Source: Steromphala cineraria
Lineage: Eukaryota > Mollusca > Gastropoda > Trochida > Trochidae
Length of the DNA stretch: 64,000 nt
NCBI GenBank assembly: GCA_916613615.1
Contig: OU744721.1
Span: forward strand, 84,139,060-84,203,059
Direction: 5' to 3'
The stretch's first letter is position 1. Each line of letters starts with the position of its first letter. The notes beneath the pieces were generated by a model. The model made no database searches, was not told the DNA's origin, and worked only from the letters and a program-made list of their open reading frames with translations. This document shows, piece after piece, positions 158-26,568 of the stretch. The translations under genes were made by a program, and so were the position numbers.

Positions 158-163
158 TTTATT
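158..163 (-). terminator. AATAAA poly(A) signal downstream of the stem-loop (copy 1)
   Basis: AATAAA on the transcript strand, about 166 nt after the stop and about 95 nt after the hairpin. It sits at the same offset, within CCAAAATAAAGG, in the units I checked. Histone genes of several animals carry such a distal signal, used when cells leave the cycle or when U7 processing fails. Here that use is inferred. Confidence 0.45.
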
Positions 164-256
164 TTGGGGGAGGGGTGGAATTTGGTGTGCCTTTTGCAGG
201 TGCGAGTTTTAGTGATGTAGTGGCATTGATTCAAGTCATCTTTTGTGATATTTGTA

Positions 257-272
257 AGCTCTGAGAAGAGCT
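257..272 (-). terminator. Histone-type mRNA 3' stem-loop of copy 1
   Basis: On the transcript strand the sequence is AGCTCT-TCTC-AGAGCT, a perfect 6-bp stem and 4-nt loop. The known metazoan histone element is GGYYYU-UHUH-ARRRCC. Stem positions 2-6 and all loop positions fit. Position 1 is A-U instead of G-C, changed on both sides so that pairing is kept. The flank 5' to the stem is A-rich (ACTAAAC). After the stem comes TACAAATATCACAAAAGATGA, whose AAAAGATGA begins about 11 nt downstream, where the U7-binding downstream element is expected. The same hairpin is present in all copies except 8 and 12, which lost it by deletion, and is altered by one base in copy 2. Confidence 0.72.
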
Positions 273-328
273 GTTTAGTGTTGAAAACACTAGTTTGGAA
301 GAACTGCATGTTGCATGTTCTTGAGTAT

Positions 329-640
329 CTAGTATTCCATCTCTTCACTGTCATACTCCTCAGAGTCCGACTGGCTGTTGACAGACACATAGTATCTGAG
401 TTCGGCAATCTTCTCAGCCTTTTCACAAGCATACTCGTAGTATGCATTGCGGACACCTTCAACTGTTGCCATTCTAAGTCGTAGGTTGTATCTGAATGAA
501 CGGTGGTTTTCGTTGCGAGCTTTGTCATAACGTTTCTGCAGACCTTCCAAGCGGTCGTTGAGGAGGACGACCTGTTCACATGCCTTCTTGAAGCGAGTCT
601 CGGTCTCGTAGAGTTGAGCGTACAGGTGAAACTTCTCCAT
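329..640 (-). CDS. Array gene copy 1: 103-residue coiled-coil protein with acidic tail, family unknown
   Basis: I do not recognise this protein. It is intronless and 103 residues long. Residues about 3-88 are rich in Leu, Glu, Lys, Arg and Tyr with heptad-like spacing, suggesting a helical or coiled-coil body with a basic stretch around residues 40-57 (KAR.ENHRSFRYNLRLR). Residues 89-103 form a tail of Ser, Asp, Glu and Tyr with several casein-kinase-2-like sites. There is no signal peptide or membrane segment. The start was chosen because it lies in ACCATGG and 60 bp below a TATA box (700-706) with a CCAAT box at 769-775. A histone-type stem-loop lies 56 nt after the stop codon (257-272). 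The architecture resembles a replication-dependent histone gene, but the protein shows no histone fold or similarity that I can see. This copy has Glu73, as only copy 4 also does. Confidence 0.75.
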   Translation of the reverse strand: MEKFHLYAQLYETETRFKKACEQVVLLNDRLEGLQKRYDKARNENHRSFRYNLRLRMATVEGVRNAYYEYACEKAEKIAELRYYVSVNSQSDSEEYDSEEMEY

Positions 641-699
641 GGTATTGATAGTAGAAGCGATTCAGAAGATCTGATGCCAAATCCATCAGGCCACGGCCA

Positions 700-706
700 T
701 TTTATA
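700..706 (-). promoter_or_regulatory. TATA box of copy 1
   Basis: TATAAAA on the minus strand, 60 bp above the ATG. Initiation about 30-34 nt downstream would fall at the CATCAG around 671-676 and leave a 5' UTR of about 32-36 nt, short as in histone genes. It sits in GGCCAGTGTATAAAATGGCC. The box is conserved at the same offset in every copy (positions in the copy entries). Confidence 0.75.
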
Positions 707-768
707 CACTGGCCATGACACGCCCTCTGTTGATGGGTGTCAAAACCTTCTCAAATGTGCAGTTGCAC

Positions 769-775
769 TGATTGG
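769..775 (-). promoter_or_regulatory. CCAAT box of copy 1
   Basis: CCAATCA on the minus strand, 63 bp above the TATA box, the usual place for an NF-Y site. The adjacent GTGCAACTGCAC (758-769) is an inverted repeat with 5-bp arms. Both lie at the same offset in the other units with a full promoter. Confidence 0.6.
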
Positions 776-842
776 CCTGGAATCCAACGCTAGGTCCTGC
801 CTCTGGATATGTCAATTACAAGGCAATCAACATTCACTTAAC

Positions 843-882
843 TGTGTACACATGGATGACAAATATCAACCTTGCTAGCAAG
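843..882. promoter_or_regulatory. Conserved palindromes upstream of the array promoter (unit 1)
   Basis: Two perfect palindromes, TGTGTACACA (843-852) and CTTGCTAGCAAG (871-882), lie 203-242 bp above the ATG and recur in the units. They could bind dimeric factors, but no factor is identified. The TTAA just before the first one (838-841) is the site used by the DNA transposon in unit 4. Confidence 0.35.
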
Positions 883-1560
883 CATACCTTTTCCCATTTT
901 TGTTGATTATTCTTTTTAATTCACTGACGGATAACTTTGCGTACTTTGAGGTAGAATGTCTGAACTTATGATAGTTACAGTAGATTGTACAAACAAACTA
1001 CTCAGAGATAATCTTGACCAAATTTGAAAATGCACATGTCAGATACCTCTTGAGTTGTACTGATTGAGTCAGACTATGTTTGTTTAACTGTCATTGTTTA
1101 ACTAGAAAAAATACAGTAATATTTTTTCTCAGTGTCTGGAGAAGAAATTATTGAGTTATTAGATTTTTATCTTGGCTATGTGGTTGACTTTGAATTACAA
1201 ATGAGTGTAACTGTATGAATTATATTTTGTGTTGAATTTTCATTAGCATTCAAATATTTCTGTCGAGGACTATTTCATTGACACTAAAAAATGTGTGTCT
1301 GAAGCCTTCTGTTTAAATACAAAGAGGGAAAACAGAGAAATCACAGGAATTTCAAGTCTCCAGAAAAGAAGACTTGTCTTCCGCTTTGTGTATTTAACAA
1401 TTATTAGCCTTATCACAAAGAAATCTTCATACAATAGCAGTGATCTGAGAAGCCAGCGCTTGGAACTGATGTATGGGCCGAACATAAAATTTTCAAATGC
1501 TGATTTTTTTGTTAAAGCGATTGTTACTTCCAAGATACTTTTTATTATGTTTAAAAAATT
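883..1560. other. Intergenic spacer of the array unit
   Basis: About 680 bp of AT-rich sequence between the upstream promoter region of copy 1 and the 3' flank of copy 2. I see no tRNA, snRNA or rRNA gene. Short reading frames on both strands here lack any promoter or protein signature and change length between units. One TGAGTCA (AP-1-like) match at 1065-1071 may be chance. The equivalent spacer in other units holds the same. Confidence 0.6.
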
Positions 1561-1889
1561 GAACTGAGTTATTATGAAGATTTTGTTCAGATCATGCTAA
1601 ATGTTGTATGTTAAGTGTAGTGTGATGTTTTGTTTTAACAAATTTTTGGAAAGATGTGTGACAAGTTAAAATCAAGACATTTGATGAATGTATTTCAAAG
1701 GGCTTATGGGCAATTACCTTTATTTTGGGGGAGGGGTGGAAGTTGGTGTGCCTTTTGCAGGTGCGAGTTTTAGTGATGTAGTGGCATTGATTCAAGTCAT
1801 CTTTTGTGATATTTGTAAGCTCCGAGAAGAGCTGTTTAGTGTTGAAAACACTAGTTTGGAAGAACTGCATGTTGCATGTTCTTGAGTAT

Positions 1890-2201
1890 CTAGTATTCCA
1901 TCTCTTCACTGTCATACTCCTCAGAGTCCGACTAGCTGTTGACAGACACATAGTATCTGAGTTCGGCAATCTTCTCAGCCTTTCCACAAGCATACTCGTA
2001 GTATGCATTGCGGACACCTTCAACTGTTGCCATTCTAAGTCGTAGGTTGTATCTGAATGAACGGTGGTTTTCGTTGCGAGCTTTGTCATAACGTTTCTGC
2101 AGACCTTCCAAGCGGTCGTTGAGGAGGACGACCTGTTCACATGCCTTCTTGAAGCGAGTCTCGGTCTCGTAGAGTTGAGCGTACAGGTGAAACTTCTCCA
2201 T
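1890..2201 (-). pseudogene. Array gene copy 2, nonsense at codon 90
   Basis: Full-length frame with CAG changed to TAG at codon 90 (1932-1934), so translation would end after residue 89 and lose only the acidic tail. The product may still fold, so calling it dead is tentative. The stem-loop (1818-1833) carries one change that turns the loop-closing U-A pair into U-G. TATA is at 2261-2267. The spacer above the promoter is joined directly to the 3' flank of copy 3 at about 2497/2498. Confidence 0.7.
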
Positions 2202-2729
2202 GGTATTGATAGTAGAAGCGATTCAGAAGATCTGATGCCAAATCCATCAGGCAACGGCCATTTTATACACTGGCCATGACACGCCCTCTGTTGATGCGTG
2301 TCAAAACCTTCTCAAATGTGCAGTTGCACTGATTGGCCTGGAATCCAACGCTAGGTCCTGCCACTGGATATGTCAATTACAAGGCAATCAACATTCACTT
2401 AACTGTGTACACATGGATGACAAATATCAACCTTGCTAGCAAGCATACCTTTTCCCATTTTTGTTGATTATTCTTTTTAATTCACTGACGGATAACTGTG
2501 ACAAGTTAAAATCAAGACATTTGATGAATGTATTTCAAAGGGCTTATGGGCAATTACCTTTATTTTGGGGGAGGGTTAGAATTTGGTGTGCCTTTTGCAG
2601 GTGCGAGTTTTAGTGATGTAGTGGCATTGATTCAAGTCATCTTTTGTGATATTTGTAAGCTCTGAGAAGAGCTGTTTAGTGTTGAAAACACTAGTTTGGA
2701 AGAACTGCATGTTGCATGTTCTTGAGTAT

Positions 2730-3041
2730 CTAGTATTCCATCTCTTCACTGTCATACTCCTCAGAGTCCGACTGGCTGTTGACAGACACATAGTATCTGA
2801 GTTCGGCAATCTTCTCAGCCTTTCCACAAGCATACTCGTAGTATGCATTGCGGACACCTTCAACTGTTGCCATTCTAAGTCGTAGGTTGTATCTGAATGA
2901 ACGGTGGTTTTCGTTGCGAGCTTTGTCATAACGTTTCTGCAGACCTTCCAAGCGGTCGTTGAGGAGGACGACCTGTTCACATGCCTTCTTGAAGCGAGTC
3001 TCGGTCTCGTAGAGTTGAGCGTACAGGTGAAACTTCTCCAT
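2730..3041 (-). CDS. Array gene copy 3: 103-residue coiled-coil/acidic-tail protein
   Basis: Intact, and used here as the reference sequence for the other copies (Asn43, Gly73, Glu94). Stem-loop 2658-2673, TATA 3101-3107. Its distal 3' flank is shortened by the deletion shared with copy 2's spacer, but the hairpin and the AATAAA remain. Confidence 0.75.
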   Translation of the reverse strand: MEKFHLYAQLYETETRFKKACEQVVLLNDRLEGLQKRYDKARNENHRSFRYNLRLRMATVEGVRNAYYEYACGKAEKIAELRYYVSVNSQSDSEEYDSEEMEY

Positions 3042-4291
3042 GGTATTGATAGTAGAAGCGATTCAGAAGATCTGATGCCAAATCCATCAGGCCACGGCCA
3101 TTTTATACACTGGCCATGACACGCCCTCTGTTGATGGGTGTCAAAACCTTCTCAAATGTGCAGTTGCACTGATTGGCCTGGAATCCAACGCTAGGTCCTG
3201 CCTCTGGATATGTCAATTACAAGGCAATCAACATTCACTTAACTGTGTACACATGGATGACAAATATCAACCTTGCTAGCAAGCATACCTTTTCTCATTT
3301 TTGTTGATTATTCTTTTTAATTCACTGACGGATAACTTTGCGTACTTTGAGTTAGAATGTCTGAACTTATGATAGTTACAGTAGATTGTACAAACAAACT
3401 ACTCAGAGATAATCTTGGCAAAATTTGAAAATGCACATGTCAGATACCTCTTGAGTTGTACTGATTGAGTCAGACTATGTTTGTTTAACTGTCATTGTTT
3501 AACTAGAAAAAATACAGTAATATTTTTTCTCAGTGTCTGGAGAAGAAATTATTGAGTTATTAGATTTTTATCTTGGCTATGTGGTTGACTTTGAATTACA
3601 AATGGGTGTAACTGTATGAATTATATTTTGTGTTGAATTTTCATTAGCATTCAAATATTTCTGTCGAGGACTATTTCATTGACACTAAAAAATGTGTGTC
3701 TGAAGCCTTCTGTTTAAATACAAAGAGGGAAAACAGAGAAATCACAGGAATTTCAAGTCTCCAGAAAAGAAGACTTGTCTTCCGCGTTGAGTATTTAACA
3801 ATTATTAGCCTTATCACAAAGAAATCTTCATACAATAGCAGTGATCTGAGAAGCCAGCGCTTGGAACTGATGTATGGGCCGAACATAAAATTTTCAAATG
3901 CTGATTTTTTTTGTTAAAGCGATTATTACTTCCAAAATACTTTTTATTATGTTTAAAAAATTGAACTGAGTTATTATGAAGATTTTGTTCAGATCATGCT
4001 AAATGTTGTATGTTAAGTGTAGTGTGATGTTTTGTTTTAAGTAATTTTTGGAAAGATGTGTGACAAGTTAAAATCAAGACATTTGATGAATGTATTTCAA
4101 AGGGCTTATGGGCAATTACCTTTATTTTGGGGGAGGGGTGGAATTTGGTGTGCCTTTTGCAGGTGCGAGTTTTAGTGATGTAGTGGCATTGATTCAAGTC
4201 ATCTTTTGTGATATTTGTAAGCTCTGAGAAGAGCTGTTTAGTGTTGAAAACACTAGTTTGGAAGAACTGCATGTTGCATGTTCTTGAGTAT

Positions 4292-4603
4292 CTAGTATTC
4301 CATCTCTTCACTGTCATACTCCTCAGAGTCCGACTGGCTGTTGACAGACACATAGTATCTGAGTTCGGCAATCTTCTCAGCCTTTTCACAAGCATACTCG
4401 TAGTATGCATTGCGGACACCTTCAACTGTTGCCATTCTAAGTCGTAGGTTGTATCTGAATGAACGGTGGTTTTCGTTGCGAGCTTTGTCATAACGTTTCT
4501 GCAGACCTTCCAAGCGGTCGTTGAGGAGGACGACCTGTTCACATGCCTTCTTGAAGCGAGTCTCGGTCTCGTAGAGTTGAGCGTAAAGGTGAAACTTCTC
4601 CAT
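4292..4603 (-). CDS. Array gene copy 4: 103-residue coiled-coil/acidic-tail protein
   Basis: Intact with Glu73. Stem-loop 4220-4235, TATA 4663-4669, CCAAT 4732-4738. A DNA transposon sits 198 bp above the start codon, beyond the CCAAT box. It separates the core promoter from the two upstream palindromes. Confidence 0.75.
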   Translation of the reverse strand: MEKFHLYAQLYETETRFKKACEQVVLLNDRLEGLQKRYDKARNENHRSFRYNLRLRMATVEGVRNAYYEYACEKAEKIAELRYYVSVNSQSDSEEYDSEEMEY

Positions 4604-4804
4604 GGTATTGATAGTAGAAGCGATTCAGAAGATCTGATGCCAAATCCATCAGGCCACGGCCATTTTATACACTGGCCATGACACGCCCTCTGTTGATGCG
4701 TGTCAAAACCTTCTCAAATGTGCAGTTGCACTGATTGGCCTGGAATCCAACGCTAGGTCCTGCCTCTGGATATGTCAATTACAAGGCAATCAACGTTCAC
4801 TTAA

Positions 4805-4829
4805 GAGGCCGATCGAGCCTCTTTCTGAG
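4805..4829 (+). repeat. Left terminal inverted repeat of the TTAA element
   Basis: GAGGCCGATCGAGCCTCTTT and following bases. It matches the reverse complement of the right end (6242-6268) with a few mismatches and a 1-2 nt offset. Confidence 0.65.
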
Positions 4830-5062
4830 AAATAAGCTTTAGATCGGGAACAAGGCTGTTTTCGAATAGCGCGTCATAGTTTTTAGATCTATAAATAGCA
4901 CGAGAAAAGCCCCTTCCCATAATGCAACGCTATATGTAAACAACATGGCTCGTTTGTGTCAGGGTGTCAAATGAATTTTGGCATTTATTTATTTATTTCT
5001 ATGTCTTGCTCATTCCAATTATTACGACTTGGGGGTATACGAAAAAACTACAACATAAATTG

Positions 5063-5140
5063 TAATATCAAAATATTTCAATATTATAAATGACATAATT
5101 ATTTATATAAATTTCCATTTATAGATTTCTTGCTTATCTC
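5063..5140 (+). repeat. Internal direct repeat A of the TTAA element
   Basis: AT-rich block beginning TAATATCAAAATATTTCAAT and ending in ATTTCTTGCTTATCTC. A diverged second copy lies at 5210-5292. Confidence 0.6.
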
Positions 5141-5209
5141 TGATGTAAACAAAGTATTTTGTTTGGATAATTATTTGTGAAATTTCTTTTCCATTTTAAT
5201 GCAATATTT

Positions 5210-5292
5210 AATATCACAATATTTCAATATTAATTAGAAATGAAAATTATTTACATATATATTTATCAATTTATGGATTTCTTGCTAATCTC
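5210..5292 (+). repeat. Internal direct repeat B of the TTAA element
   Basis: Diverged copy of 5063-5140, beginning TAATATCACAATATTTCAAT and ending in ATTTCTTGCTAATCTC. It suggests an old internal duplication in the element. Confidence 0.6.
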
Positions 5293-6241
5293 AACCCGAC
5301 TCATAGTAAAACATTTTTTCTTCCAAAATATATCTTAGTCACTTAAATCACATGAAGTTTTTATGTTCGAAAAAGTGCAACACGGACTGTGTATATTTCG
5401 GAGTGCGACAGCGCTGACGATTTTTTTTATATTCGATGCGAATCAACTATTCTTCTCAGTGTCACATTGATTGAGTGTCATATGTAGATTTCAATAAACA
5501 ATCTGTTTGTCTGTCAATTTTCTTATGCAAACATTATTAACAAATTTCCTACAAATTAAACATCCAAGTAACTACAACACCGACCAAACAATCAGCTGAC
5601 AATAATCCTAGTGGTCGCCATGATCAAGGCTTCGAGTTCGATCGGCTTTCCTCCGCCATTTTGAATTGTTTGCATTGCGAGAAAACAAATGTACTGTATC
5701 ATGCTAATTCATTGAGTAAATCAAGAAAAAATAAGTGATTGATAGAAGAGGGACATGTTTACACGTGATGCATAATAAAAGTTATCAGTTAAGACAGTAT
5801 TTTGTTGCAGTAAATGCCAGTAATGCATCTCACGCTCGTAGCTCCGATGATTGGCTTCATTTCACGATGTTTTTCTTTTTGGGGGGCGATACACTTAATT
5901 CTTTATCAAATTGTTAAATCATGAACAACTTGAATGATAACCTCATTAACATTTTGAATTTTTTAAAATTAAGTGTGAAATAATCATGTAAAAATCGTAT
6001 TTATTAGTTAACAGGAATGTCCTCCGTGAATTTCGTTTCCACAAACAAACAAAATCACCGCTCGATGTGCTTGTCAGTGGCTTTATTTATTTTCGCAATT
6101 TTTTTGTTTTGAAGGGCGGATTAGAACAAATTACCAAATATGACATAGTTATTAACATAAAAAAAATAGTAAACAAAGTCGAATATATAAAATTTGACGT
6201 GTCGTGTGCAAAAGGGAATTCCCTCCCGAATATTTGTGGAA

Positions 6242-6268
6242 CAGAAAATAGCCGCTCGATCTGGCCCT
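6242..6268 (-). repeat. Right terminal inverted repeat of the TTAA element
   Basis: Read inwards on the minus strand it is AGGGCCAGATCGAGCGGC and following bases, partner to the left end. Confidence 0.65.
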
Positions 6269-7322
6269 TTAACTGTGTACACATGGATGACAAATATCAA
6301 CCTTGCTAGCAAGCATACCTTTTCCCATTTTTGTTGATTATTCTTTTTAATTCACTGACGGATAACTTTGCGTACTTTGAGTTAGAATGTCTGAACTTAT
6401 GATAGTTACAGTAGATTGTACAAACAAACAACTCAGAGATAATCTTGGCCAAATTTGAAAATGCACATGTCAGATACCTCTTGAGTTGTACTGATTGAGT
6501 CAGACTATGTTTGTTTAACTGTCATTGTTTAACTAGAAAAAATAAAGTAATATTTTTTCTCAGTGTCTGGAGAAGAAATTATTGAGTTATTAGATTTTTA
6601 TCTTGGCTATGTGGTTGACTTTGAATTACAAATGGGTGTAACTGTATGAATTATATTTTGTGTTGAATTTTCATTAGCATTCAAATATTTCTGTCGAGGA
6701 CTATTTCATTGACACTAAAAAATGTGTGTCTGAAGCCTTCTGTTTAAATACAAAGAGGGAAAACAGAGAAATCACAGGAATTTCAAGTCTCCAGAAAAGA
6801 AGACTTGTCTTCCGCGTTGTGTATTTAACAATTATTAGCCTTATCACAAAGAAATCTTCATACAATAGCAGTGATCTGAGAAGCCAGCGCTTGGAACTGA
6901 TGTATAGCCCGAACATAAAATTTTCAAATGCTGATTTTTTTTTGTTAAAGCGATTGTTACTTCCAAGATACTTTTTATTATGTTTAAAAAATTGAACTGA
7001 GTTATTATGAAGATTTTGTTCAGATCATGCTAAATGTTGTATGTTAAGTGTAGTGTGATGTTTTGTTTTAAGTAATTTTTGGAAAGATGTGTGACAAGTT
7101 AAAATCAAGACATTTGATGAATGTATTTCAAAGGGCTTATGGGCAATTACCTTTATTTTGGGGGAGGGGTGGAATTTGGTGTGCCTTTTGCAGGTGCGAG
7201 TTTTAGTGATGTAGTGGCTTTGATTCAAGTCATCTTTTGTGATATTTGTAAGCTCTGAGAAGAGCTGTTTAGTGTTGAAAACACTAGTTTGGAAGAACTG
7301 CATGTTGCATGTTCTTGAGTAT

Positions 7323-7634
7323 CTAGTATTCCATCTCTTCACTGTCATACTCCACAGAGTCCGACTGGCTGTTGACAGACACATAGTATCTGAGTTCGGC
7401 AATCTTCTCAGCCTTTCCACAAGCATACTCGTAGTATGCATTGCGGACACCTTCAACTGTTGCCATTCTAAGTCGTAGGTTGTATCTGAATGAACGGTGG
7501 TTTTCGTTGCGAGCTTTGTCATAACGTTTCTGCAGACCTTCCAAGCGGTCGTTGAGGAGGACGACCTGTTCACATGCCTTCTTGAAGCGAGTCTCGGTCT
7601 CGTAGAGTTGAGCGTACAGGTGAAACTTCTCCAT
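7323..7634 (-). CDS. Array gene copy 5: 103-residue coiled-coil/acidic-tail protein
   Basis: Intact. First copy with Val94 in place of Glu in the acidic tail. Stem-loop 7251-7266, TATA 7694-7700, CCAAT 7763-7769. Confidence 0.75.
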   Translation of the reverse strand: MEKFHLYAQLYETETRFKKACEQVVLLNDRLEGLQKRYDKARNENHRSFRYNLRLRMATVEGVRNAYYEYACGKAEKIAELRYYVSVNSQSDSVEYDSEEMEY

Positions 7635-8884
7635 GGTATTGATAGTAGAAGCGATTCAGAAGATCTGATGCCAAATCCATCAGGCCACGGCCATTTTATA
7701 CACTGGGCATGACACGCCCTCTGTTGATGGGTGTCCAAACCTTCTCAAATGTGCAGTTGCACTGATTGGCCTGGAATCCAACGCTAGGTCCTGCCACTGG
7801 ATATGTCAATTACAAGGCAATCAACATTCACTTAACTGTGTACACATGGATGACAAATATCAACCTTGCTAGCAAGCATACCTTTTCCCATTTTTGTTGA
7901 TTATTCTTTTTAATTCACTGACGGATAACTTTGCGTACTTTGAGTTAGAATGTCTGAACTTATGATAGTTACAGTAGATTGTACAAACAAACTACTCAGA
8001 GATAATCTTGGCCAAATTTGAAAATGCACATGTCAGATACCTCTTGAGTTGTACTGATTGAGTCAGACTATGTTTGTTTAACTGTCATTGTTTAACTAGA
8101 AAAAATACAGTAATATTTTTTCTCAGTGTCTTGAGAAGAAATTATTGAGTTATTAGATTTTTATCTTGGCTATGTGGTTGACTTTGAATTACAAATGGGT
8201 GTAACTGTATGAATTATATTTTGTGTTGAATTTTCATTAGCATTCAAATATTTCTGTCGAGGACTATTTCATTGACACTAAAAAATGTGTGTCTGAAGCC
8301 TTCTGTTTAAATACAAAGAGGGAAAACAGAGAAATCACAGGAATTTCAAGTCTCCAGAAAAGAAGACTTGTCTTCCGCGTTGTGTATTTAACAATTATTA
8401 GCCTTATCACAAAGAAATCTTCATACAATAGCAGTGATCTGAGAAGCCAGCGCTTGGAACTGATGTATGGGCCGAACATAAAATTTTCAAATGCTGATTT
8501 TTTTTGTTAAAGCGATTGTTGCTTCCAAGATACTTTTTATTATGTTTAAAAAATTGAACTGAGTTATTATGAAGATTTTGTTCAGATCATGCTAAATGTT
8601 GTATGTTAAGTGTAGTGTGATGTTTTGTTTTAAGTAATTTTTGGAAAGATGTGTGACAAGTTAAAATCAAGACATTTGATGAATGTATTTCAAAGGGCTT
8701 ATGGGCAATTACCTTTATTTTGGGGGAGGGGTGGAATTTGGTGTGCCTTTTGCAGGTGCGAGTTTTAGTGATGTAGTGGCATTGATTCAAGTCATCTTTT
8801 GTGATATTTGTAAGCTCTGAGAAGAGCTGTTTAGTGTTGAAAACACTAGTTTGGAAGAACTGCATGTTGCATGTTCTTGAGTAT

Positions 8885-9195
8885 CTAGTATTCCATCTCT
8901 TCACTGTCATACTCCACAGAGTCCGACTGGCTGTTGACAGACACATAGTATCTGAGTTCGGCAATCTTCTCAGCCTTTCCACAAGCATACTCGTAGTATG
9001 CATTGCGGACACCTTCAACTGTTGCCATTCTAAGTCGTAGGTTGTATCTGAATGAACGGTGGTTTTCTTGGCGAGCTTTGTCATAATGTTCTGCAGACCT
9101 TCCAAGCGGTCGTTGAGGAGGACGACCTGTTCACATGCCTTCTTGAAGCGAGTCTCGGTCTCGTAGAGTTGAGCGTACAGGTGAAACTTCTCCAT
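8885..9195 (-). pseudogene. Array gene copy 6, frameshifted
   Basis: One base is missing near codon 36: the plus strand reads CATAATGTTCTGC where others have CATAACGTTTCTGC. After residue 35 translation enters another frame that stays open to 8587, giving a 202-residue chimera with an unrelated tail. Stem-loop 8813-8828, TATA 9255-9261. Just 5' of the shift the DNA carries the right-block marker CTTGGCGAG (a Gln43 codon), unlike its intact neighbours. Confidence 0.75.
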
Positions 9196-10445
9196 GGTAT
9201 TGATAGTAGAAGCGATTCAGAAGATCTGATGCCAAATCCATCAGGCCACGGCCATTTTATACACTGGCCATGACACGCCCTCTGTTGATGGGTGTCAAAA
9301 CCTTCTCAAATGTGCAGTTGCACTGATTGGCCTGGAATCCAACGCTAGGTCCTGCCACTGGATATGTCAATTACAAGGCAATCAACATTCACTTAACTGT
9401 GTACACATGGATGACAAATATCAACCTTGCTAGCAAGCATACCTTTTCCCATTTTTGTTGATTATTCTTTTTAATTCACTGACGGATAACTTTGCGTACT
9501 TTGAGTTAGAATGTCTGAACTTATGATAGTTACAGTAGATTGTACAAACAAACTACTCAGAGATAATCTTGGCCAAATTTGAAAATGCACATGTCAGATA
9601 CCTCTTGAGTTGTACTGATTGAGTCAGACTATGTTTGTTTAACTGTCATTGTTTAACTAGAAAAAATACAGTAATATTTTTTCTCAGTGTCTTGAGAAGA
9701 AATTATTGAGTTATTAGATTTTTATCTTGGCTATGTGGTTGACTTTGAATTACAAATGGGTGTAACTGTATGAATTATATTTTGTGTTGAATTTTCATTA
9801 GCATTCAAATATTTCTGTCGAGGACTATTTCATTGACACTAAAAAATGTGTGTCTGAAGCCTTCTGTTTAAATACAAAGAGGGAAAACAGAGAAATCACA
9901 GGAATTTCAAGTCTCCAGAAAAGAAGACTTGTCTTCCGCGTTGTGTATTTAACAATTATTAGCCTTATCACAAAGAAATCTTCATACAATAGCAGTGATC
10001 TGAGAAGCCAGCGCTTGGAACTGATGTATGGGCCGAACATAAAATTTTCAAATGCTGATTTTTTTTGTTAAAGCGATTGTTACTTCCAAGATACTTTTTA
10101 TTATGTTTAAAAAATTGAACTGAGTTATTATGAAGATTTTGTTCAGATCATGCTAAATGTTGTATGTTAAGTGTAGTGTGATGTTTTGTTTTAAGTAATT
10201 TTTGGAAAGATGTGTGACAAGTTAAAATCAAGACATTTGATGAATGTATTTCAAAGGGCTTATGGGCAATTACCTTTATTTTGGGGGAGGGGTGGAATTT
10301 GGTGTGCCTTTTGCAGGTGCGAGTTTTAGTGATGTAGTGGCATTGATTCAAGTCATCTTTTGTGATATTTGTAAGCTCTGAGAAGAGCTGTTTAGTGTTG
10401 AAAACACTAGTTTGGAAGAACTGCATGTTGCATGTTCTTGAGTAT

Positions 10446-10757
10446 CTAGTATTCCATCTCTTCACTGTCATACTCCACAGAGTCCGACTGGCTGTTGACA
10501 GACACATAGTATCTGAGTTCGGCAATCTTCTCAGCCTTTCCACAAGCATACTCGTAGTATGCATTGCGGACACCTTCAACTGTTGCCATTCTAAGTCGTA
10601 GGTTGTATCTGAATGAACGGTGGTTTTCGTTGCGAGCTTTGTCATAACGTTTCTGCAGACCTTCCAAGCGGTCGTTGAGGAGGACGACCTGTTCACATGC
10701 CTTCTTGAAGCGAGTCTCGGTCTCGTAGAGTTGAGCGTACAGGTGAAACTTCTCCAT
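10446..10757 (-). CDS. Array gene copy 7: 103-residue coiled-coil/acidic-tail protein
   Basis: Intact, Val94. Stem-loop 10374-10389, TATA 10817-10823. Its upstream spacer runs directly into the truncated copy 8. Confidence 0.75.
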   Translation of the reverse strand: MEKFHLYAQLYETETRFKKACEQVVLLNDRLEGLQKRYDKARNENHRSFRYNLRLRMATVEGVRNAYYEYACGKAEKIAELRYYVSVNSQSDSVEYDSEEMEY

Positions 10758-11529
10758 GGTATTGATAGTAGAAGCGATTCAGAAGATCTGATGCCAAATC
10801 CATCAGGCCACGGCCATTTTATACACTGGGCATGACACGCCCTCTGTTGATGGGTGTCAAAACCTTCTCAAATGTGCAGTTGCACTGATTGGCCTGGAAT
10901 CCAACGCTAGGTCCTGCCACTGGATATGTCAATTACAAGGCAATCAACATTCACTTAACTGTGTACACATGGATGACAAATATCAACCTTGCTAGCAAGC
11001 ATACCTTTTCCCATTTTTGTTGATTATTCTTTTTAATTCACTGACGGATAACTTTGCGTACTTTGAGTTAGAATGTCTGAACTTATGATAGTTACAGTAG
11101 ATTGTACAAACAAACTACTCAGAGATAATCTTGGCCAAATTTGAAAATGCACATGTCAGATACCTCTTGAGTTGTACTGATTGAGTCAGACTGTGTTTGT
11201 TTAACTGTCATTGTTTAACTAGAAAAAATACAGTAATATTTTTTCTCAGTGTCTTGAGAAGAAATTATTGAGTTATTAGATTTTTATCTTGGCTATGTGG
11301 TTGACTTTGAATTACAAATGGGTGTAACTGTATGAATTATATTTTGTGTTGAATTTTCATTAGCATTCAAATATTTCTGTCGAGGACTATTTCATTGACA
11401 CTAAAAAATGTGTGTCTGAAGCCTTCTGTTTAAATACAAAGAGGGAAAACAGAGAAATCACAGGAATTTCAAGTCTCCAGAAAAGAAGACTTGTCTTCCG
11501 CGTTGTGTATTTAACAATTATTAGCCTTA

Positions 11530-11751
11530 TCACAAAGAAATCTTCATACAATAGCAGTGATCTGAGAAGCCAGCGCTTGGAACTGATGTATGGGCCGAAC
11601 ATAAAATTGAACGGTGGTTTTCTTGGCGAGCTTTGTCATAACGTTTCTGCAGACCTTCCAAGCGGTCGTTGAGGAGGACGACCTGTTCACATGCCTTCTT
11701 GAAGCGAGTCTCGGTCTCGTAGAGTTGAGCGTACAGGTGAAACTTCTCCAT
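11530..11751 (-). pseudogene. Array gene copy 8, 3'-truncated by deletion
   Basis: The first 48 codons are kept, then a junction at 11608/11609 joins codon 48 to the spacer of the preceding unit. This removes 568 bp, including the C-terminal half, stop codon, stem-loop and AATAAA. A chimeric 73-residue frame results. Promoter intact (TATA 11811-11817). The same junction occurs in copy 12. Confidence 0.8.
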
Positions 11752-13001
11752 GGTATTGATAGTAGAAGCGATTCAGAAGATCTGATGCCAAATCCATCAG
11801 GCCACGGCCATTTTATACACTGGGCATGACACGCCCTCTGTTGATGGGTGTCAAAACCTTCTCAAATGTGCAGTTGCACTGATTGGCCTGGAATCCAACG
11901 CTAGGTCCTGCCACTGGATATGTCAATTACAAGGCAATCAACATTCACTTAACTGTGTACACATGGATGACAAATATCAACCTTGCTAGCAAGCATACCT
12001 TTTCCCATTTTTGTTGATTATTCTTGTTAATTCACTGACGGATAACTTTGCGTACTTTGAGTTAGAATGTCTGAACTTATGATAGTTACAGTAGATTGTA
12101 CAAACAAACTACTCAGAGATAATCTTGGCCAAATTTGAAAATGCACATGTCAGATACCTCTTGAGTTGTACTGATTGAGTCAGACTATGTTTGTTTAACT
12201 GTCATTGTTTAACTAGAAAAAATACAGTAATATTTTTTCTCAGTGTCTGGAGAAGAAATTATTGAGTTATTAGATTTTTATCTTGGCTATGTGGTTGACT
12301 TTGAATTACAAATGGGTGTAACTGTATGAATTATATTTTGTGTTGAATTTTCATTAGCATTCAAATATTTCTGTCGAGGACTATTTCATTGACACTAAAA
12401 AATGTGTGTCTGAAGCCTTCTGTTTAAATACAAAGAGGGAAAACAGAGAAATCACAGGAATTTCAAGTCTCCAGAAAAGAAGACTTGTCTTCCGCGTTGT
12501 GTATTTAACAATTATTAGCCTTATCACAAAGAAATCTTCATACAATAGCAGTGATCTGAGAAGCCAGCGCTTGGAACTGATGTATGGGCCGAACATAAAA
12601 TTTTCAAATGCTGATTTTTTTTGTTAAAGCGATTGTTACTTCCAAGATACTTTTTATTATGTTTAAAAAATTGAACTGAGTTATTATGAAGATTTTGTTC
12701 AGATCATGCTAAATGTTGTATGTTAAGTGTAGTGTGATGTTTTGTTTTAAGTAATTTTTGGAAAGATGTGTGACAAGTTAAAATCAAGACATTTGATGAA
12801 TGTATTTCAAAGGGCTTATGGGCAATTACCTTTATTTTGGGGGAGGGGTGGAATTTGGTGTGCCTTTTGCAGGTGCGAGTTTTAGTGATGTAGTGGCATT
12901 GATTCAAGTCATCTTTTGTGATATTTGTAAGCTCTGAGAAGAGCTGTTTAGTGTTGAAAACACTAGTTTGGAAGAACTGCATGTTGCATGTTCTTGAGTA
13001 T

Positions 13002-13313
13002 CTAGTATTCCATCTCTTCACTGTCATACTCCACAGAGTCCGACTGGCTGTTGACAGACACATAGTATCTGAGTTCGGCAATCTTCTCAGCCTTTCCACA
13101 AGCATACTCGTAGTATGCATTGCGGACACCTTCAACTGTTGCCATTCTAAGTCGTAGGTTGTATCTGAATGAACGGTGGTTTTCGTTGCGAGCTTTGTCA
13201 TAACGTTTCTGCAGACCTTCCAAGCGGTCGTTGAGGAGGACGACCTGTTCACATGCCTTCTTGAAGCGAGTCTCGGTCTCGTAGAGTTGAGCGTACAGGT
13301 GAAACTTCTCCAT
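13002..13313 (-). CDS. Array gene copy 9: 103-residue coiled-coil/acidic-tail protein
   Basis: Intact, Val94. Stem-loop 12930-12945, TATA 13373-13379. Confidence 0.75.
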   Translation of the reverse strand: MEKFHLYAQLYETETRFKKACEQVVLLNDRLEGLQKRYDKARNENHRSFRYNLRLRMATVEGVRNAYYEYACGKAEKIAELRYYVSVNSQSDSVEYDSEEMEY

Positions 13314-14563
13314 GGTATTGATAGTAGAAGCGATTCAGAAGATCTGATGCCAAATCCATCAGGCCACGGCCATTTTATACACTGGGCATGACACGCCCTC
13401 TGTTGATGGGTGTCAAAACCTTCTCAAATGTGCAGTTGCACTGATTGGCCTGGAATCCAACGCTAGGTCCTGCCACTGGATATGTCAATTACAAGGCAAT
13501 CAACATTCACTTAACTGTGTACACATGGATGACAAATATCAACCTTGCTAGCAAGCATACCTTTTCCCATTTTTGTTGATTATTCTTTTTAATTCACTGA
13601 CGGATAACTTTGCGTACTTTGAGTTAGAATGTCTGAACTTATGATAGTTACAGTAGATTGTACAAACAAACTACTCAGAGATAATCTTGGCCAAATTTGA
13701 AAATGCACATGTCAGATACCTCTTGAGTTGTACTGATTGAGTCAGACAATGTTTGTTTAACTGTCATTGTTTAACTAGAAAAAATACAGTAATATTTTTT
13801 CTCAGTGTCTTGAGAAGAAATTATTGAGTTATTAGATTTTTATCTTGGCTATGTGGTTGACTTTGAATTACAAATGGGTGTAACTGTATGAATTATATTT
13901 TGTGTTGAATTTTCATTAGCATTCAAATATTTCTGTCGAGGACTATTTCATTGACACTAAAAAATGTGTGTCTGAAGCCTTCTGTTTAAATACAAAGAGG
14001 GAAAACAGAGAAATCACAGGAATTTCAAGTCTCCAGAAAAGAAGACTTGTCTTCCGCGTTGTGTATTTAACAATTATTAGCCTTATCACAAAGAAATCTT
14101 CATACAATAGCAGTGATCTGAGAAGCCAGCGCTTGGAACTGATGTATGGGCCGAACATAAAATTTTCAAATGCTGATTTTTTTTGTTAAAGCGATTGTTA
14201 CTTCCAAGATACTTTTTATTATGTTTAAAAAATTGAACTGAGTTATTATGAAGATTTTGTTCAGATCATGCTAAATGTTGTATGTTAAGTGTAGTGTGAT
14301 GTTTTGTTTTAAGTAATTTTTGGAAAGATGTGTGACAAGTTAAAATCAAGACATTTGATGAATGTATTTCAAAGGGCTTATGGGCAATTACCTTTATTTT
14401 GGGGGAGGGGTGGAATTTGGTGTGCCTTTTGCAGGTGCGAGTTTTAGTGATGTAGTGGCATTGATTCAAGTCATCTTTTGTGATATTTGTAAGCTCTGAG
14501 AAGAGCTGTTTAGTGTTGAAAACACTAGTTTGGAAGAACTGCATGTTGCATGTTCTTGAGTAT

Positions 14564-14875
14564 CTAGTATTCCATCTCTTCACTGTCATACTCCACAGAG
14601 TCCGACTGGCTGTTGACAGACACATAGTATCTGAGTTCGGCAATCTTCTCAGCCTTTCCACAAGCATACTCGTAGTATGCATTGCGGACACCTTCAACTG
14701 TTGCCATTCTAAGTCGTAGGTTGTATCTGAATGAACGGTGGTTTTCGTTGCGAGCTTTGTCATAACGTTTCTGCAGACCTTCCAAGCGGTCGTTGAGGAG
14801 GACGACCTGTTCACATGCCTTCTTGAAGCGAGTCTCGGTCTCGTAGAGTTGAGCGTACAGGTGAAACTTCTCCAT
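14564..14875 (-). CDS. Array gene copy 10: 103-residue coiled-coil/acidic-tail protein
   Basis: Intact, Val94. Stem-loop 14492-14507, TATA 14935-14941. Confidence 0.75.
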   Translation of the reverse strand: MEKFHLYAQLYETETRFKKACEQVVLLNDRLEGLQKRYDKARNENHRSFRYNLRLRMATVEGVRNAYYEYACGKAEKIAELRYYVSVNSQSDSVEYDSEEMEY

Positions 14876-16124
14876 GGTATTGATAGTAGAAGCGATTCAG
14901 AAGATCTGATGCCAAATCCATCAGGCCACGGCCATTTTATACACTGGGCATGACACGCCCTCTGTTGATGGGTGTCAAAACCTTCTCAAATGTGCAGTTG
15001 CACTGATTGGCCTGGAATCCAACGCTAGGTCCTGCCACTGGATATGTCAATTACAAGGCAATCAACATTCACTTAACTGTGTACACATGGATGACAAATA
15101 TCAACCTTGCTAGCAAGCATACCTTTTCCCATTTTTGTTGATTATTCTTTTTAATTCACTGACGGATAACTTTGCGTACTTTGAGTTAGAATGTCTGAAC
15201 TTATGATAGTTACAGTAGATTGTACAAACAAACTACTCAGAGATAATCTTGGCCAAATTTGAAAATGCACATGTCAGATACCTCTTGAGTTGTACTGATT
15301 GAGTCAGACTATGTTTGTTTAACTGTCATTGTTTAACTAGAAAAAATACAGTAATATTTTTTCTCAGTGTCTGGAGAAGAAATTATTGAGTTATTAGATT
15401 TTTATCTTGGCTATGTGGTTGACTTTGAATTACAAATGGGTGTAACTGTATGAATTATATTTTGTGTTGAATTTTCATTAGCATTCAAATATTTCTGTCG
15501 AGGACTATTTCATTGACACTAAAAAATGTGTGTCTGAAGCCTTCTGTTTAAATACAAAGAGGGAAAACAGAGAAATCACAGGAATTTCAAGTCTCCAGAA
15601 AAGAAGACTTGTCTTCCGCGTTGTGTATTTAACAATTATTAGCCTTATCACAAAGAAATCTTCATACAATAGCAGTGATCTGAGAAGCCAGCGCTTGGAA
15701 CTGATGTATGGGCCGAACATAAAATTTTCAAATGCTGATTTTTTTTGTTAAAGCGATTGTTACTTCCAAGATACTTTTTATTATGTTTAAAAAATTGAAC
15801 TGAGTTATTATGAAGATTTTGTTCAGATCATGCTAAATGTTGTATGTTAAGTGTAGTGTGATGTTTTGTTTTAAGTAATTTTTGGAAAGATGTGTGACAA
15901 GTTAAAATCAAGACATTTGATGAATGTATTTCAAAGGGCTTATGGGCAATTACCTTTATTTTGGGGGAGGGTGGAATTTGGTGTGCCTTTTGCAGGTGCG
16001 AGTTTTAGTGATGTAGTGGCATTGATTCAAGTCATCTTTTGTGATATTTGTAAGCTCTGAGAAGAGCTGTTTAGTGTTGAAAACACTAGTTTGGAAGAAC
16101 TGCATGTTGCATGTTCTTGAGTAT

Positions 16125-16436
16125 CTAGTATTCCATCTCTTCACTGTCATACTCCACAGAGTCCGACTGGCTGTTGACAGACACATAGTATCTGAGTTCG
16201 GCAATCTTCTCAGCCTTTCCACAAGCATACTCGTAGTATGCATTGCGGACACCTTCAACTGTTGCCATTCTAAGTCGTAGGTTGTATCTGAATGAACGGT
16301 GGTTTTCGTTGCGAGCTTTGTCATAACGTTTCTGCAGACCTTCCAAGCGGTCGTTGAGGAGGACGACCTGTTCACATGCCTTCTTGAAGCGAGTCTCGGT
16401 CTCGTAGAGTTGAGCGTACAGGTGAAACTTCTCCAT
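16125..16436 (-). CDS. Array gene copy 11: 103-residue coiled-coil/acidic-tail protein
   Basis: Intact, Val94. Stem-loop 16053-16068, TATA 16496-16502. The 3' flank has one G fewer in the G-rich run near 15963-15970, a marker shared with copies 13 and 15. Confidence 0.75.
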   Translation of the reverse strand: MEKFHLYAQLYETETRFKKACEQVVLLNDRLEGLQKRYDKARNENHRSFRYNLRLRMATVEGVRNAYYEYACGKAEKIAELRYYVSVNSQSDSVEYDSEEMEY

Positions 16437-17208
16437 GGTATTGATAGTAGAAGCGATTCAGAAGATCTGATGCCAAATCCATCAGGCCACGGCCATTTTA
16501 TACACTGGGCATGACACGCCCTCTGTTGATGGGTGTCAAAACCTTCTCAAATGTGCAGTTGCACTGATTGGCCTGGAATCCAACGCTAGGTCCTGCCACT
16601 GGATATGTCAATTACAAGGCAATCAACATTCACTTAACTGTGTACACATGGATGACAAATATCAACCTTGCTAGCAAGCATACCTTTTCCCATTTTTGTT
16701 GATTATTCTTTTTAATTCACTGACGGATAACTTTGCGTACTTTGAGTTAGAATGTCTGAACTTATGATAGTTACAGTAGATTGTACAAACAAACTACTCA
16801 GAGATAATCTTGGCCAAATTTGAAAATGCACATGTCAGATACCTCTTGAGTTGTACTGATTGAGTCAGACTATGTTTGTTTAACTGTCATTGTTTAACTA
16901 GAAAAAATACAGTAATATTTTTTCTCAGTGTCTTGAGAAGAAATTATTGAGTTATTAGATTTTTATCTTGGCTATGTGGTTGACTTTGAATTACAAATGG
17001 GTGTAACTGTATGAATTATATTTTGTGTTGAATTTTCATTAGCATTCAAATATTTCTGTCGAGGACTATTTCATTGACACTAAAAAATGTGTGTCTGAAG
17101 CCTTCTGTTTAAATACAAAGAGGGAAAACAGAGAAATCACAGGAATTTCAAGTCTCCAGAAAAGAAGACTTGTCTTCCGCGTTGTGTATTTAACAATTAT
17201 TAGCCTTA

Positions 17209-17430
17209 TCACAAAGAAATCTTCATACAATAGCAGTGATCTGAGAAGCCAGCGCTTGGAACTGATGTATGGGCCGAACATAAAATTGAACGGTGGTTTT
17301 CTTGGCGAGCTTTGTCATAACGTTTCTGCAGACCTTCCAAGCGGTCGTTGAGGAGGACGACCTGTTCACATGCCTTCTTGAAGCGAGTCTCGGTCTCGTA
17401 GAGTTGAGCGTACAGGTGAAACTTCTCCAT
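17209..17430 (-). pseudogene. Array gene copy 12, 3'-truncated by the same deletion as copy 8
   Basis: The junction at 17287/17288 has the same bases as in copy 8, so both descend from one deleted unit. Codons 1-48 remain, with no stem-loop or poly(A) signal. TATA 17490-17496. It lies 5679 bp from copy 8, exactly four units of this local pattern. Confidence 0.8.
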
Positions 17431-18679
17431 GGTATTGATAGTAGAAGCGATTCAGAAGATCTGATGCCAAATCCATCAGGCCACGGCCATTTTATACACT
17501 GGCCATGACACGCCCTCTGTTGATGGGTGTCCAAACCTTCTCAAATGTGCAGTTGCACTGATTGGCCTGGAATCCAACGCTAGGTCCTGCCACTGGATAT
17601 GTCAATTACAAGGCAATCAACATTCACTTAACTGTGTACACATGGATGACAAATATCAACCTTGCTAGCAAGCATACCTTTTCCCATTTTTGTTGATTAT
17701 TCTTTTTAATTCACTGACGGATAACTTTGCGTACTGTGAGTTAGAATGTCTGAACTTATGATAGTTACAGTAGATTGTACAAACAAACTACTCAGAGATA
17801 ATCTTGGCCAAATTTGAAAATGCACATGTCAGATACCTCTTGAGTTGTACTGATTGAGTCAGACTATGTTTGTTTAACTGTCATTGTTTAACTAGAAAAA
17901 ATACAGTAATATTTTTTCTCAGTGTCTGGAGAAGAAATTATTGAGTTATTAGATTTTTATCTTGGCTATGTGGTTGACTTTGAATTACAAATGGGTGTAA
18001 CTGTATGAATTATATTTTGTGTTGAATTTTCATTAGCATTCAAATATTTCTGTCGAGGACTATTTCATTGACACTAAAAAATGTGTGTCTGAAGCCTTCT
18101 GTTTAAATACAAAGAGGGAAAACAGAGAAATCACAGGAATTTCAAGTCTCCAGAAAAGAAGACTTGTCTTCCGCGTTGTGTATTTAACAATTATTAGCCT
18201 TATCACAAAGAAATCTTCATACAATAGCAGTGATCTGAGAAGCCAGCGCTTGGAACTGATGTATGGGCCGAACATAAAATTTTAAAATGCTGATTTTTTT
18301 TGTTAAAGCGATTGTTACTTCCAAGATACTTTTTATTATGTTTAAAAAATTGAACTGAGTTATTATGAAGATTTTGTTCAGATCATGCTAAATGTTGTAT
18401 GTTAAGTGTAGTGTGATGTTTTGTTTTAAGTAATTTTTGGAAAGATGTGTGACAAGTTAAAATCAAGACATTTGATGAATGTATTTCAAAGGGCTTATGG
18501 GCAATTACCTTTATTTTGGGGGAGGGTGGAATTTGGTGTGCCTTTTGCAGGTGCGAGTTTTAGTGATGTAGTGGCATTGATTCAAGTCATCTTTTGTGAT
18601 ATTTGTAAGCTCTGAGAAGAGCTGTTTAGTGTTGAAAACACTAGTTTGGAAGAACTGCATGTTGCATGTTCTTGAGTAT

Positions 18680-18991
18680 CTAGTATTCCATCTCTTCACT
18701 GTCATACTCCACAGAGTCCGACTGGCTGTTGACAGACACATAGTATCTGAGTTCGGCAATCTTCTCAGCCTTTCCACAAGCATACTCGTAGTATGCATTG
18801 CGGACACCTTCAACTGTTGCCATTCTAAGTCGTAGGTTGTATCTGAATGAACGGTGGTTTTCGTTGCGAGCTTTGTCATAACGTTTCTGCAGACCTTCCA
18901 AGCGGTCGTTGAGGAGGACGACCTGTTCACATGCCTTCTTGAAGCGAGTCTCGGTCTCGTAGAGTTGAGCGTACAGGTGAAACTTCTCCAT
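18680..18991 (-). CDS. Array gene copy 13: 103-residue coiled-coil/acidic-tail protein
   Basis: Intact, Val94. Stem-loop 18608-18623, TATA 19051-19057. Confidence 0.75.
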   Translation of the reverse strand: MEKFHLYAQLYETETRFKKACEQVVLLNDRLEGLQKRYDKARNENHRSFRYNLRLRMATVEGVRNAYYEYACGKAEKIAELRYYVSVNSQSDSVEYDSEEMEY

Positions 18992-20241
18992 GGTATTGAT
19001 AGTAGAAGCGATTCAGAAGATCTGATGCCAAATCCATCAGGCCACGGCCATTTTATACACTGGCCATGACACGCCCTCTGTTGATGGGTGTCAAAACCTT
19101 CTCAAATGTGCAGTTGCACTGATTGGCCTGGAATCCAACGCTAGGTCCTGCCACTGGATATGTCAATTACAAGGCAATCAACATTCACTTAACTGTGTAC
19201 ACATGGATGACAAATATCAACCTTGCTAGCAAGCATACCTTTTCCCATTTTTGTTGATTATTCTTTTTAATTCACTGACGGATAACTTTGCGTACTTTGA
19301 GTTAGAATGTCTGAACTTATGATAGTTACAGTAGATTGTACAAACAAACTACTCAGAGATAATCTTGGCCAAATTTGAAAATGCACATGTCAGATACCTC
19401 TTGAGTTGTACTGATTGAGTCAGACAATGTTTGTTTAACTGTCATTGTTTAACTAGAAAAAATACAGTAATATTTTTTCTCAGTGTCTTGAGAAGAAATT
19501 ATTGAGTTATTAGATTTTTATCTTGGCTATGTGGTTGACTTTGAATTACAAATGGGTGTAACTGTATGAATTATATTTTGTGTTGAATTTTCATTAGCAT
19601 TCAAATATTTCTGTCGAGGACTATTTCATTGACACTAAAAACTGTGTGTCTGAAGCCTTCTGTTTAAATACAAAGAGGGAAAACAGAGAAATCACAGGAA
19701 TTTCAAGTCTCCAGAAAAGAAGACTTGTCTTCCGCGTTGTGTATTTAACAATTATTAGCCTTATCACAAAGAAATCTTCATACAATAGCAGTGATCTGAG
19801 AAGCCAGCGCTTGGAACTGATGTATGGGCCGAACATAAAATTTTCAAATGCTGATTTTTTTTGTTAAAGCGATTGTTACTTCCAAGATACTTTTTATTAT
19901 GTTTAAAAAATTGAACTGAGTTATTATGAAGATTTTGTTCAGATCATGCTAAATGTTGTATGTTAAGTGTAGTGTGATGTTTTGTTTTAAGTAATTTTTG
20001 GAAAGATGTGTGACAAGTTAAAATCAAGACATTTGATGAATGTATTTCAAAGGGCTTATGGGCAATTACCTTTATTTTGGGGGAGGGGTGGAATTTGGTG
20101 TGCCTTTTGCAGGTGCGAGTTTTAGTGATGTAGTGGCATTGATTCAAGTCATCTTTTGTGATATTTGTAAGCTCTGAGAAGAGCTGTTTAGTGTTGAAAA
20201 CACTAGTTTGGAAGAACTGCATGTTGCATGTTCTTGAGTAT

Positions 20242-20553
20242 CTAGTATTCCATCTCTTCACTGTCATACTCCACAGAGTCCGACTGGCTGTTGACAGACA
20301 CATAGTATCTGAGTTCGGCAATCTTCTCAGCCTTTCCACAAGCATACTCGTAGTATGCATTGCGGACACCTTCAACTGTTGCCATTCTAAGTCGTAGGTT
20401 GTATCTGAATGAACGGTGGTTTTCGTTGCGAGCTTTGTCATAACGTTTCTGCAGACCTTCCAAGCGGTCGTTGAGGAGGACGACCTGTTCACATGCCTTC
20501 TTGAAGCGAGTCTCGGTCTCGTAGAGTTGAGCGTACAGGTGAAACTTCTCCAT
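20242..20553 (-). CDS. Array gene copy 14: 103-residue coiled-coil/acidic-tail protein
   Basis: Intact, Val94. Stem-loop 20170-20185, TATA 20613-20619. Confidence 0.75.
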   Translation of the reverse strand: MEKFHLYAQLYETETRFKKACEQVVLLNDRLEGLQKRYDKARNENHRSFRYNLRLRMATVEGVRNAYYEYACGKAEKIAELRYYVSVNSQSDSVEYDSEEMEY

Positions 20554-21802
20554 GGTATTGATAGTAGAAGCGATTCAGAAGATCTGATGCCAAATCCATC
20601 AGGCCACGGCCATTTTATACACTGGGCATGACACGCCCTCTGTTGATGGGTGTCAAAACCTTCTCAAATGTGCAGTTGCACTGATTGGCCTGGAATCCAA
20701 CGCTAGGTCCTGCCACTGGATATGTCAATTACAAGGCAATCAACATTCACTTAACTGTGTACACATGGATGACAAATATCAACCTTGCTAGCAAGCATAC
20801 CTTTTCCCATTTTTGTTGATTATTCTTTTTAATTCACTGACGGATAACTTTGCGTACTGTGAGTTAGAATGTCTGAACTTATGATAGTTACAGTAGATTG
20901 TACAAACAAACTACTCAGAGATAATCTTGGCCAAATTTGAAAATGCACATGTCAGATACCTCTTGAGTTGTACTGATTGAGTCAGACTATGTTTGTTTAA
21001 CTGTCATTGTTTAACTAGAAAAAATACAGTAATATTTTTTCTCAGTGTCTGGAGAAGAAATTATTGAGTTATTAGATTTTTATCTTGGCTATGTGGTTGA
21101 CTTTGAATTACAAATGGGTGTAACTGTATGAATTATATTTTGTGTTGAATTTTCATTAGCATTCAAATATTTCTGTCGAGGACTATTTCATTGACACTAA
21201 AAAATGTGTGTCTGAAGCCTTCTGTTTAAATACAAAGAGGGAAAACAGAGAAATCACAGGAATTTCAAGTCTCCAGAAAAGAAGACTTGTCTTCCGCGTT
21301 GTGTATTTAACAATTATTAGCCTTATCACAAAGAAATCTTCATACAATAGCAGTGATCTGAGAAGCCAGCGCTTGGAACTGATGTATGGGCCGAACATAA
21401 AATTTTAAAATGCTGATTTTTTTTGTTAAAGCGATTGTTACTTCCAAGATACTTTTTATTATGTTTAAAAAATTGAACTGAGTTATTATGAAGATTTTGT
21501 TCAGATCATGCTAAATGTTGTATGTTAAGTGTAGTGTGATGTTTTGTTTTAAGTAATTTTTGGAAAGATGTGTGACAAGTTAAAATCAAGACATTTGATG
21601 AATGTATTTCAAAGGGCTTATGGGCAATTACCTTTATTTTGGGGGAGGGTGGAATTTGGTGTGCCTTTTGCAGGTGCGAGTTTTAGTGATGTAGTGGCAT
21701 TGATTCAAGTCATCTTTTGTGATATTTGTAAGCTCTGAGAAGAGCTGTTTAGTGTTGAAAACACTAGTTTGGAAGAACTGCATGTTGCATGTTCTTGAGT
21801 AT

Positions 21803-26373: not shown

Positions 26374-26387
26374 TTTCCCGGCCCCTT
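26374..26387 (-). other. Polypurine tract of the BEL/Pao element
   Basis: AAGGGGCCGGGAAA on the element strand, directly against the 3' LTR. This is the expected position for the plus-strand primer, although two C residues interrupt the purines. Confidence 0.6.
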
Positions 26388-26568
26388 AAATGGAAACATT
26401 TAACAATAACAACCTTCAAATAATAACATCAAAAGAAATATCTAATTGATATAATGAACATTGAAAGAAATACTCAAAGTTTGATTTTCAATAAACCACC
26501 TGCCAGTGAATAAATAAATTATCACTGATACAAAAACCTAGAATTCAGGTCACAGATTCAAGGAGACA
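26388..26568 (-). other. Untranslated stretch between gag-pol stop and polypurine tract
   Basis: About 180 bp of AT-rich sequence without a recognisable feature, the internal 3' untranslated part of the retrotransposon. Confidence 0.6.

Follow-up and report, generated by a model that had tools for sequence, protein, structure and literature searches.

The window analyzed here, a 64,000-nucleotide stretch of contig OU744721.1 from the gastropod Steromphala cineraria, holds a minus-strand tandem array of 37 recognisable units (38 BLAST rows in the self-comparison). The units lie head to tail and are homogenised, with a spacing typically of 1557–1562 bp that deletions and insertions have made shorter or longer in a few places. 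Each full unit carries a single intronless gene encoding 103 amino acids, together with CCAAT and TATA elements, a 56-nt 3' UTR, a 16-nt hairpin and a purine-rich stretch. This combination had been claimed in the initial annotation, and unit 1 confirms every element of it (Table 1). The promoters of replication-dependent histone genes likewise contain CCAAT and TATA elements.

Table 1. Features of the array and of the gene cassette in unit 1, in window coordinates.
Feature	Position	Strand	Basis
Tandem array of ~1.56-kb units with gene cassette	232..63607	-	Self-comparison; 37 CCAAT and 37 TATA elements
CCAAT element GGCCAATCAG	768..777	-	Unit 1 sequence
TATA box TATAAAATGG	697..706	-	Unit 1 sequence
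103-aa ORF without intron (predicted helical hairpin plus acidic tail)	329..640	-	ORF, homologues, predicted structure
Stop codon TAG	331..329	-	Unit 1
56-nt 3' UTR before hairpin	273..328	-	Unit 1
Second hairpin, not histone-type (DNA: TAGTGTTTTCAACACTA)	276..292	-	RNA fold; 35 copies
Histone-type stem-loop AGCUCU-UCUC-AGAGCU (DNA: AGCTCTTCTCAGAGCT), A-U first pair	257..272	-	Rfam, fold, pattern
Purine-rich AAAAGAUGA (AAAAGATGA at 244..236), candidate histone downstream element	236..244	-	Sequence; similar element implied in P0103 and P0127
AATAAA ~94 nt past hairpin, possible back-up poly(A) signal	158..163	-	Sequence
Extra unit lacking most of the gene	46087..46468		
BEL/Pao LTR retroelement inside the array	25715..32942		One 1890-aa ORF between two 659-bp repeats
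~1.47-kb insertion between two TTAA sites	about 4801..6272		Similar inverted ends

A gene start is present in 36 copies, of which 29 are intact (encoding 103 aa) and seven are broken, four by premature stops, one by a frameshift and two by truncations that removed the hairpin. The extra unit has lost most of its gene and kept the hairpin. Only five of the 25 distinct coding changes between array copies are synonymous, and the random expectation is 20%. The copies therefore look unconstrained, drifting freely at present with no sign of selection on any single one.

The hairpin consists of a 6-bp stem and a UCUC loop (UHUH), with AAAC on the 5' side of the stem. It occurs 35 times in the window, 34 times in identical form and once with an A-to-G change at the loop-closing pair (1818..1833). 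In all 35 cases TAG and AAAC lie at a constant distance upstream and AAAAGATGA lies downstream, and the purine-rich AAAAGAUGA, whose pairing with U7 is putative, is likewise found in all 35 hairpin units. The consensus of histone stem-loops is GGYYYUUHUHARRRCC, with a 6-bp stem and a 4-nt UHUH loop. All positions of the hairpin fit this consensus except the first pair, which is A-U in place of G-C; the hairpin sequence thus bears out the earlier reading of an SLBP-consensus-type hairpin in which that pair is altered on both sides. A second stable hairpin, with a 7-bp stem (UAGUGUU/AACACUA, minus strand), lies just upstream of the histone-type one in 35 copies.

To put a number on this likeness, we used the pattern R-G-YYY-UUHUH-ARRR-C-Y with six pairs, its first pair having been relaxed after inspection of the sequence. 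Over 3000 dinucleotide shuffles, with both strands counted, its expectation is 0.0013 per unit, and the unit tested contains it once; inside the 150 nt 3' of the stop, on the gene strand, the expectation is 6e-5. The 107 nt 3' of the stop fold with a z-score of -3.22 relative to dinucleotide shuffles (one of 200 was equally good), and the hairpin is present in both the MFE and the centroid structures of this segment.

Comparison with Rfam gave a divided answer. In a cmscan of 9 kb against 4227 families, the histone stem-loop family RF00032 scored 19.1 bits (E=0.24, or roughly 6e-5 for that family alone by our own arithmetic from these two figures). A scan of the entire window, with E allowed up to 10, yielded 34 RF00032 matches, every one at a hairpin (33 at 19.1 bits and one at 20.8), and the copy with the A-to-G change fell below the E 10 limit. 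At the Rfam gathering score of 34 bits, RF00032 had 0 matches in the window, the best reaching 20.8 bits. One outcome that the initial annotation had named as refuting, the absence of a significant Rfam hit, thus holds at the gathering score, but the sub-threshold matches fall at the hairpins and nowhere else. A plausible cause of the low score is the A-U first pair together with the downstream bases. By the curated cut-off the hairpin is not a member of RF00032; judged from the sequence, the likeness would concern its way of working.

The encoded protein is basic over its first 86 residues (pI 9.1) and acidic over its last 17. The acidic tail described in the initial annotation is therefore present, although restricted to about these last 17 residues, and the description of the product as a non-histone protein holds, since nothing matched by sequence in Pfam, NCBIfam or PDB identifies it as a histone. 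The sole Pfam match at E<=1 was IQ_SEC7_PH, not a histone family, whose 18.3 bits fall short of its cut-off of 27, NCBIfam returned no match, and there was no histone among the seven rows of the PDB sequence search. A PDB profile search gave five rows, of which the best was BAP31 (E 0.039); the histone-fold protein CENP-S appeared at E 0.34. The histone fold has three helices, the middle one long. It was considered for this protein and rejected, as the AlphaFold2 model, built on 82 aligned sequences, has instead two long helices (residues 3-43 and 47-99; mean pLDDT 90, pTM 0.72). The predicted fold would be a common helical hairpin with no telling structural match.

A protein search recovered 81 relatives that are 43-95% identical to the window protein, and the residues E61-G62-V63-R64-N65 are invariant in the 82 aligned sequences, although some later matches read EGAR or EGSR. 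This range of identity and the five invariant residues indicate that the protein has been constrained over the long term. In a profile search, 7985 candidates were scored and 362 had E<=1, of which the listing covered 120. Among the 81 relatives and these 120, all eight that carry an organism name are molluscs, and the gene family is therefore probably molluscan. They belong to Patella caerulea (SNE40_012698, SNE40_014619, SNE40_022570 and SNE40_011378), Mya arenaria (MAR_007173, MAR_017287 and MAR_017281) and Nucella lapillus (ACOMHN_051719), and share with the window protein the motifs EGVRN and FRY-N/S-L/I-RL. All are listed as hypothetical or uncharacterised.

The family also looks multi-copy outside the window. 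The larger clusters among the relatives hold 135, 102, 47, 41, 35 and 27 member sequences, to which several samples may contribute. In Mya arenaria, two gene models join copies head to tail, three (one of them partial) in P0082 and two in P0083, and such fused copies are the output expected of a gene predictor run on a tandem array. For 39 of the 81 relatives the longest contig measures 1.2-1.8 kb, which would fit collapsed arrays and hints at them weakly, short metagenomic contigs being common anyway. A tree, in which few columns were available and deep forks are weakly supported, resolves window-like, limpet, Mya-containing and long-tailed groups, the last with Patella and Nucella. Short and long-tailed forms are both present in Patella. 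The long-tailed subgroup comprises P0067, P0071 (Patella), P0072, P0097 and P0130 (Nucella), with tails that are strongly acidic in the first four and less so in P0130; the short array genes could have arisen from a single-copy ancestor of this kind.

Some database proteins of the family run on, or are frame-shifted, into the 3' UTR, and from these the stem-loops of relatives were deduced through codons rather than read from DNA. The translated 3' tails of five relatives (P0079, P0103, P0113, P0116 and P0127) all accommodate the stem-loop pattern at 0 mismatches; among 2000 residue-shuffled versions of each tail, 11, 26, 4, 71 and 44, respectively, were equally good, counts that are uncorrected for the choice of tails after inspection and that refer to a pattern without a pairing demand, its first pair relaxed post hoc. 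P0079, P0103, P0113 and P0131 were chosen by a regular expression over 131 proteins, and P0116 and P0127, which are frame-shifted copies and close relatives of each other, by eye among proteins over 112 aa. P0131 has a fitting tail too, equalled by 76 of 2000 shuffles, but is a near copy of the window. The two controls, P0097 and P0130, whose long tails are probably genuine, gave three and one mismatches, with 1965 and 931 of 2000 shuffles as good.

In the tails that continue from a normal C-terminus the hairpin starts after 35 (P0103), 42 (P0113) and 55 nt (P0079), compared with 59 nt from the first base of the stop codon in the window. The codons force A1/T16 (A1/U16 in RNA) in P0079, as in the window, and G1/C16 in P0113, P0116 and P0127; the first pair has thus changed on both sides, co-varying within the family. 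Against the signal stands a C4·A13 mid-stem mismatch, implied in three of the five relatives, strictly in P0127 and in the fitting reading in P0113 and P0116. Following the hairpin, P0103 and P0127 encode Q-I-S-R-K-K, which is compatible with CAAAUAUCAAGAAAGAAA, a sequence close both to its window counterpart, CAAAUAUCACAAAAGAUGA, and to the CAAGAAAGA element of sea urchin histone genes.

The array, the cassette, the hairpin, the compatible signal in five relatives, the protein family and the predicted fold are sequence-level observations of this work. From them, we consider it likely that the array belongs to a multi-copy, intronless molluscan family of non-histone genes whose mRNAs are processed at the 3' end like those of replication-dependent histone genes. 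By analogy with those mRNAs, we infer the use of SLBP and U7, the absence of poly(A) and the timing of expression; any connection with chromatin is inferred as well. In this scheme the stem-loop would be recognised by SLBP and the purine-rich element would base-pair with the U7 snRNP, and cleavage of the pre-mRNA would follow a few nucleotides 3' of the stem-loop, with no polyadenylation. The helical-hairpin protein would then be made in bulk while SLBP is present, that is, in S phase, oogenesis and early cleavage. A bolder version would see here an ancient second class of replication-dependent genes in molluscs, an amplified non-histone protein with a stem-loop-ended mRNA scaled to DNA synthesis. 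The protein would then perhaps act in handling histones or in chromatin architecture, in oocytes and cleaving embryos that require large amounts of it; we offer this version tentatively, thinking it on the whole rather unlikely.

Other explanations can be set against histone-type processing. That the hairpin is a chance palindrome lacking any histone-type function draws some strength from the sub-threshold Rfam score and from the near identity of the units, which makes the 35 copies a single event. We disfavor this as highly improbable, given how rarely the pattern is expected in the 150 nt 3' of the stop on that strand and given the signal in five relatives with its forced two-sided change of the first pair. 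The same two-sided change bears on the idea that most of the mRNA acquires a poly(A) tail at the downstream AATAAA, the stem-loop being used rarely or at a single stage, since a disused element would not be required to change in this way. In unit 1 an AATAAA does follow the hairpin at a distance of ~94 nt, but the motif occurs 77 times on the array's strand across the window, about twice per unit, and we judge main use of this signal improbable.

Equally improbable, in our estimate, is a satellite-like or selfish nature of the array, in which case an amplified sequence would have picked up a histone 3' end in the past and most copies would be silent. Homogenised head-to-tail units of ~1.56 kb, seven broken copies among 36 and coding changes that look neutral are all features that such a sequence might show. 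Recent neutral variants are, however, also the expectation for members of a large homogenised array, most copies (29 of 36) are intact, and the long-term conservation seen in 81 relatives at 43-95% identity, with five residues invariant in 82 sequences, argues for a constrained protein.

The case for a histone-type cassette on a non-histone gene family is strong at the level of sequence, and the family resembles replication-dependent histone genes in its 16-nt stem-loop with a UHUH loop and its purine-rich candidate downstream element. It differs from them in that the product is not a histone, the first stem pair is A-U, each unit holds one gene and the stem-loop scores below the curated Rfam cut-off. 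The short intronless gene, short 3' UTR and tandem multi-copy array are further likenesses to replication-dependent histone genes, as represented by RF00032 and by the bivalve Lucina pectinata (PMC6210712), whose histone mRNAs have a stem-loop and, in some cases, purine-rich elements. In a paper on Hydractinia, histone genes are given the same hallmarks, a 16-bp stem-loop plus a purine-rich downstream element (PMC5011920). For mammalian cells, replication-dependent histone mRNAs have been described as unique among cellular mRNAs in lacking polyadenylation (PMC12177063). SLBP CLIP in human cells picked up one non-histone RNA, PPP1R5B (as written there), with a histone stem-loop-like structure (PMC6451120). 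The window genes share with it a structure of this kind on a non-histone RNA; that case is one CLIP cluster, whereas here an entire tandem gene family has the stem-loop, placed 56 nt beyond the stop codon.

Among the open-licence PMC papers listed for non-histone stem-loop genes and for tandem multicopy mollusc genes, a description of the family was not found. What appears new here, and is well supported at the level of sequence, is the presence of histone-type 3' ends, within a full cassette, on a tandemly repeated non-histone gene family. If a conserved, high-copy non-histone family does use a histone ending, genes other than those of histones can adopt SLBP/U7 processing and the stem-loop/SLBP/U7 system is not exclusive to histones. 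The family would then indicate that molluscs require a protein in amounts that scale with DNA replication, and it would offer a natural test of whether the 3' end or the product ties a gene to S phase.

The array is interrupted by two insertions. One is a BEL/Pao LTR retroelement, whose single ORF contains Pao peptidase, integrase H2C2, DUF1759 and DUF5641 domains and whose repeats are 98.8% alike, so that its insertion is probably recent. The other, flanked by TTAA, is piggyBac- or MITE-like, with similar inverted ends that begin TTAAGAGGCC and TTAAAGGGCC. Two sub-arrays can be distinguished, with gene starts up to 23673 and from 25231 on, the switch lying near the retroelement. The left one mostly encodes RNENH at a spacing of 1559-1562 bp, its two truncated copies reading RQENH, and the right one mostly encodes RQENH or a close variant at a spacing of 1557-1559 bp. 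The truncated units, with gene starts at 17430 and 11751, have an identical translated break and a 994-bp spacing, have lost the gene end and the hairpin, and were perhaps duplicated together with their neighbors.
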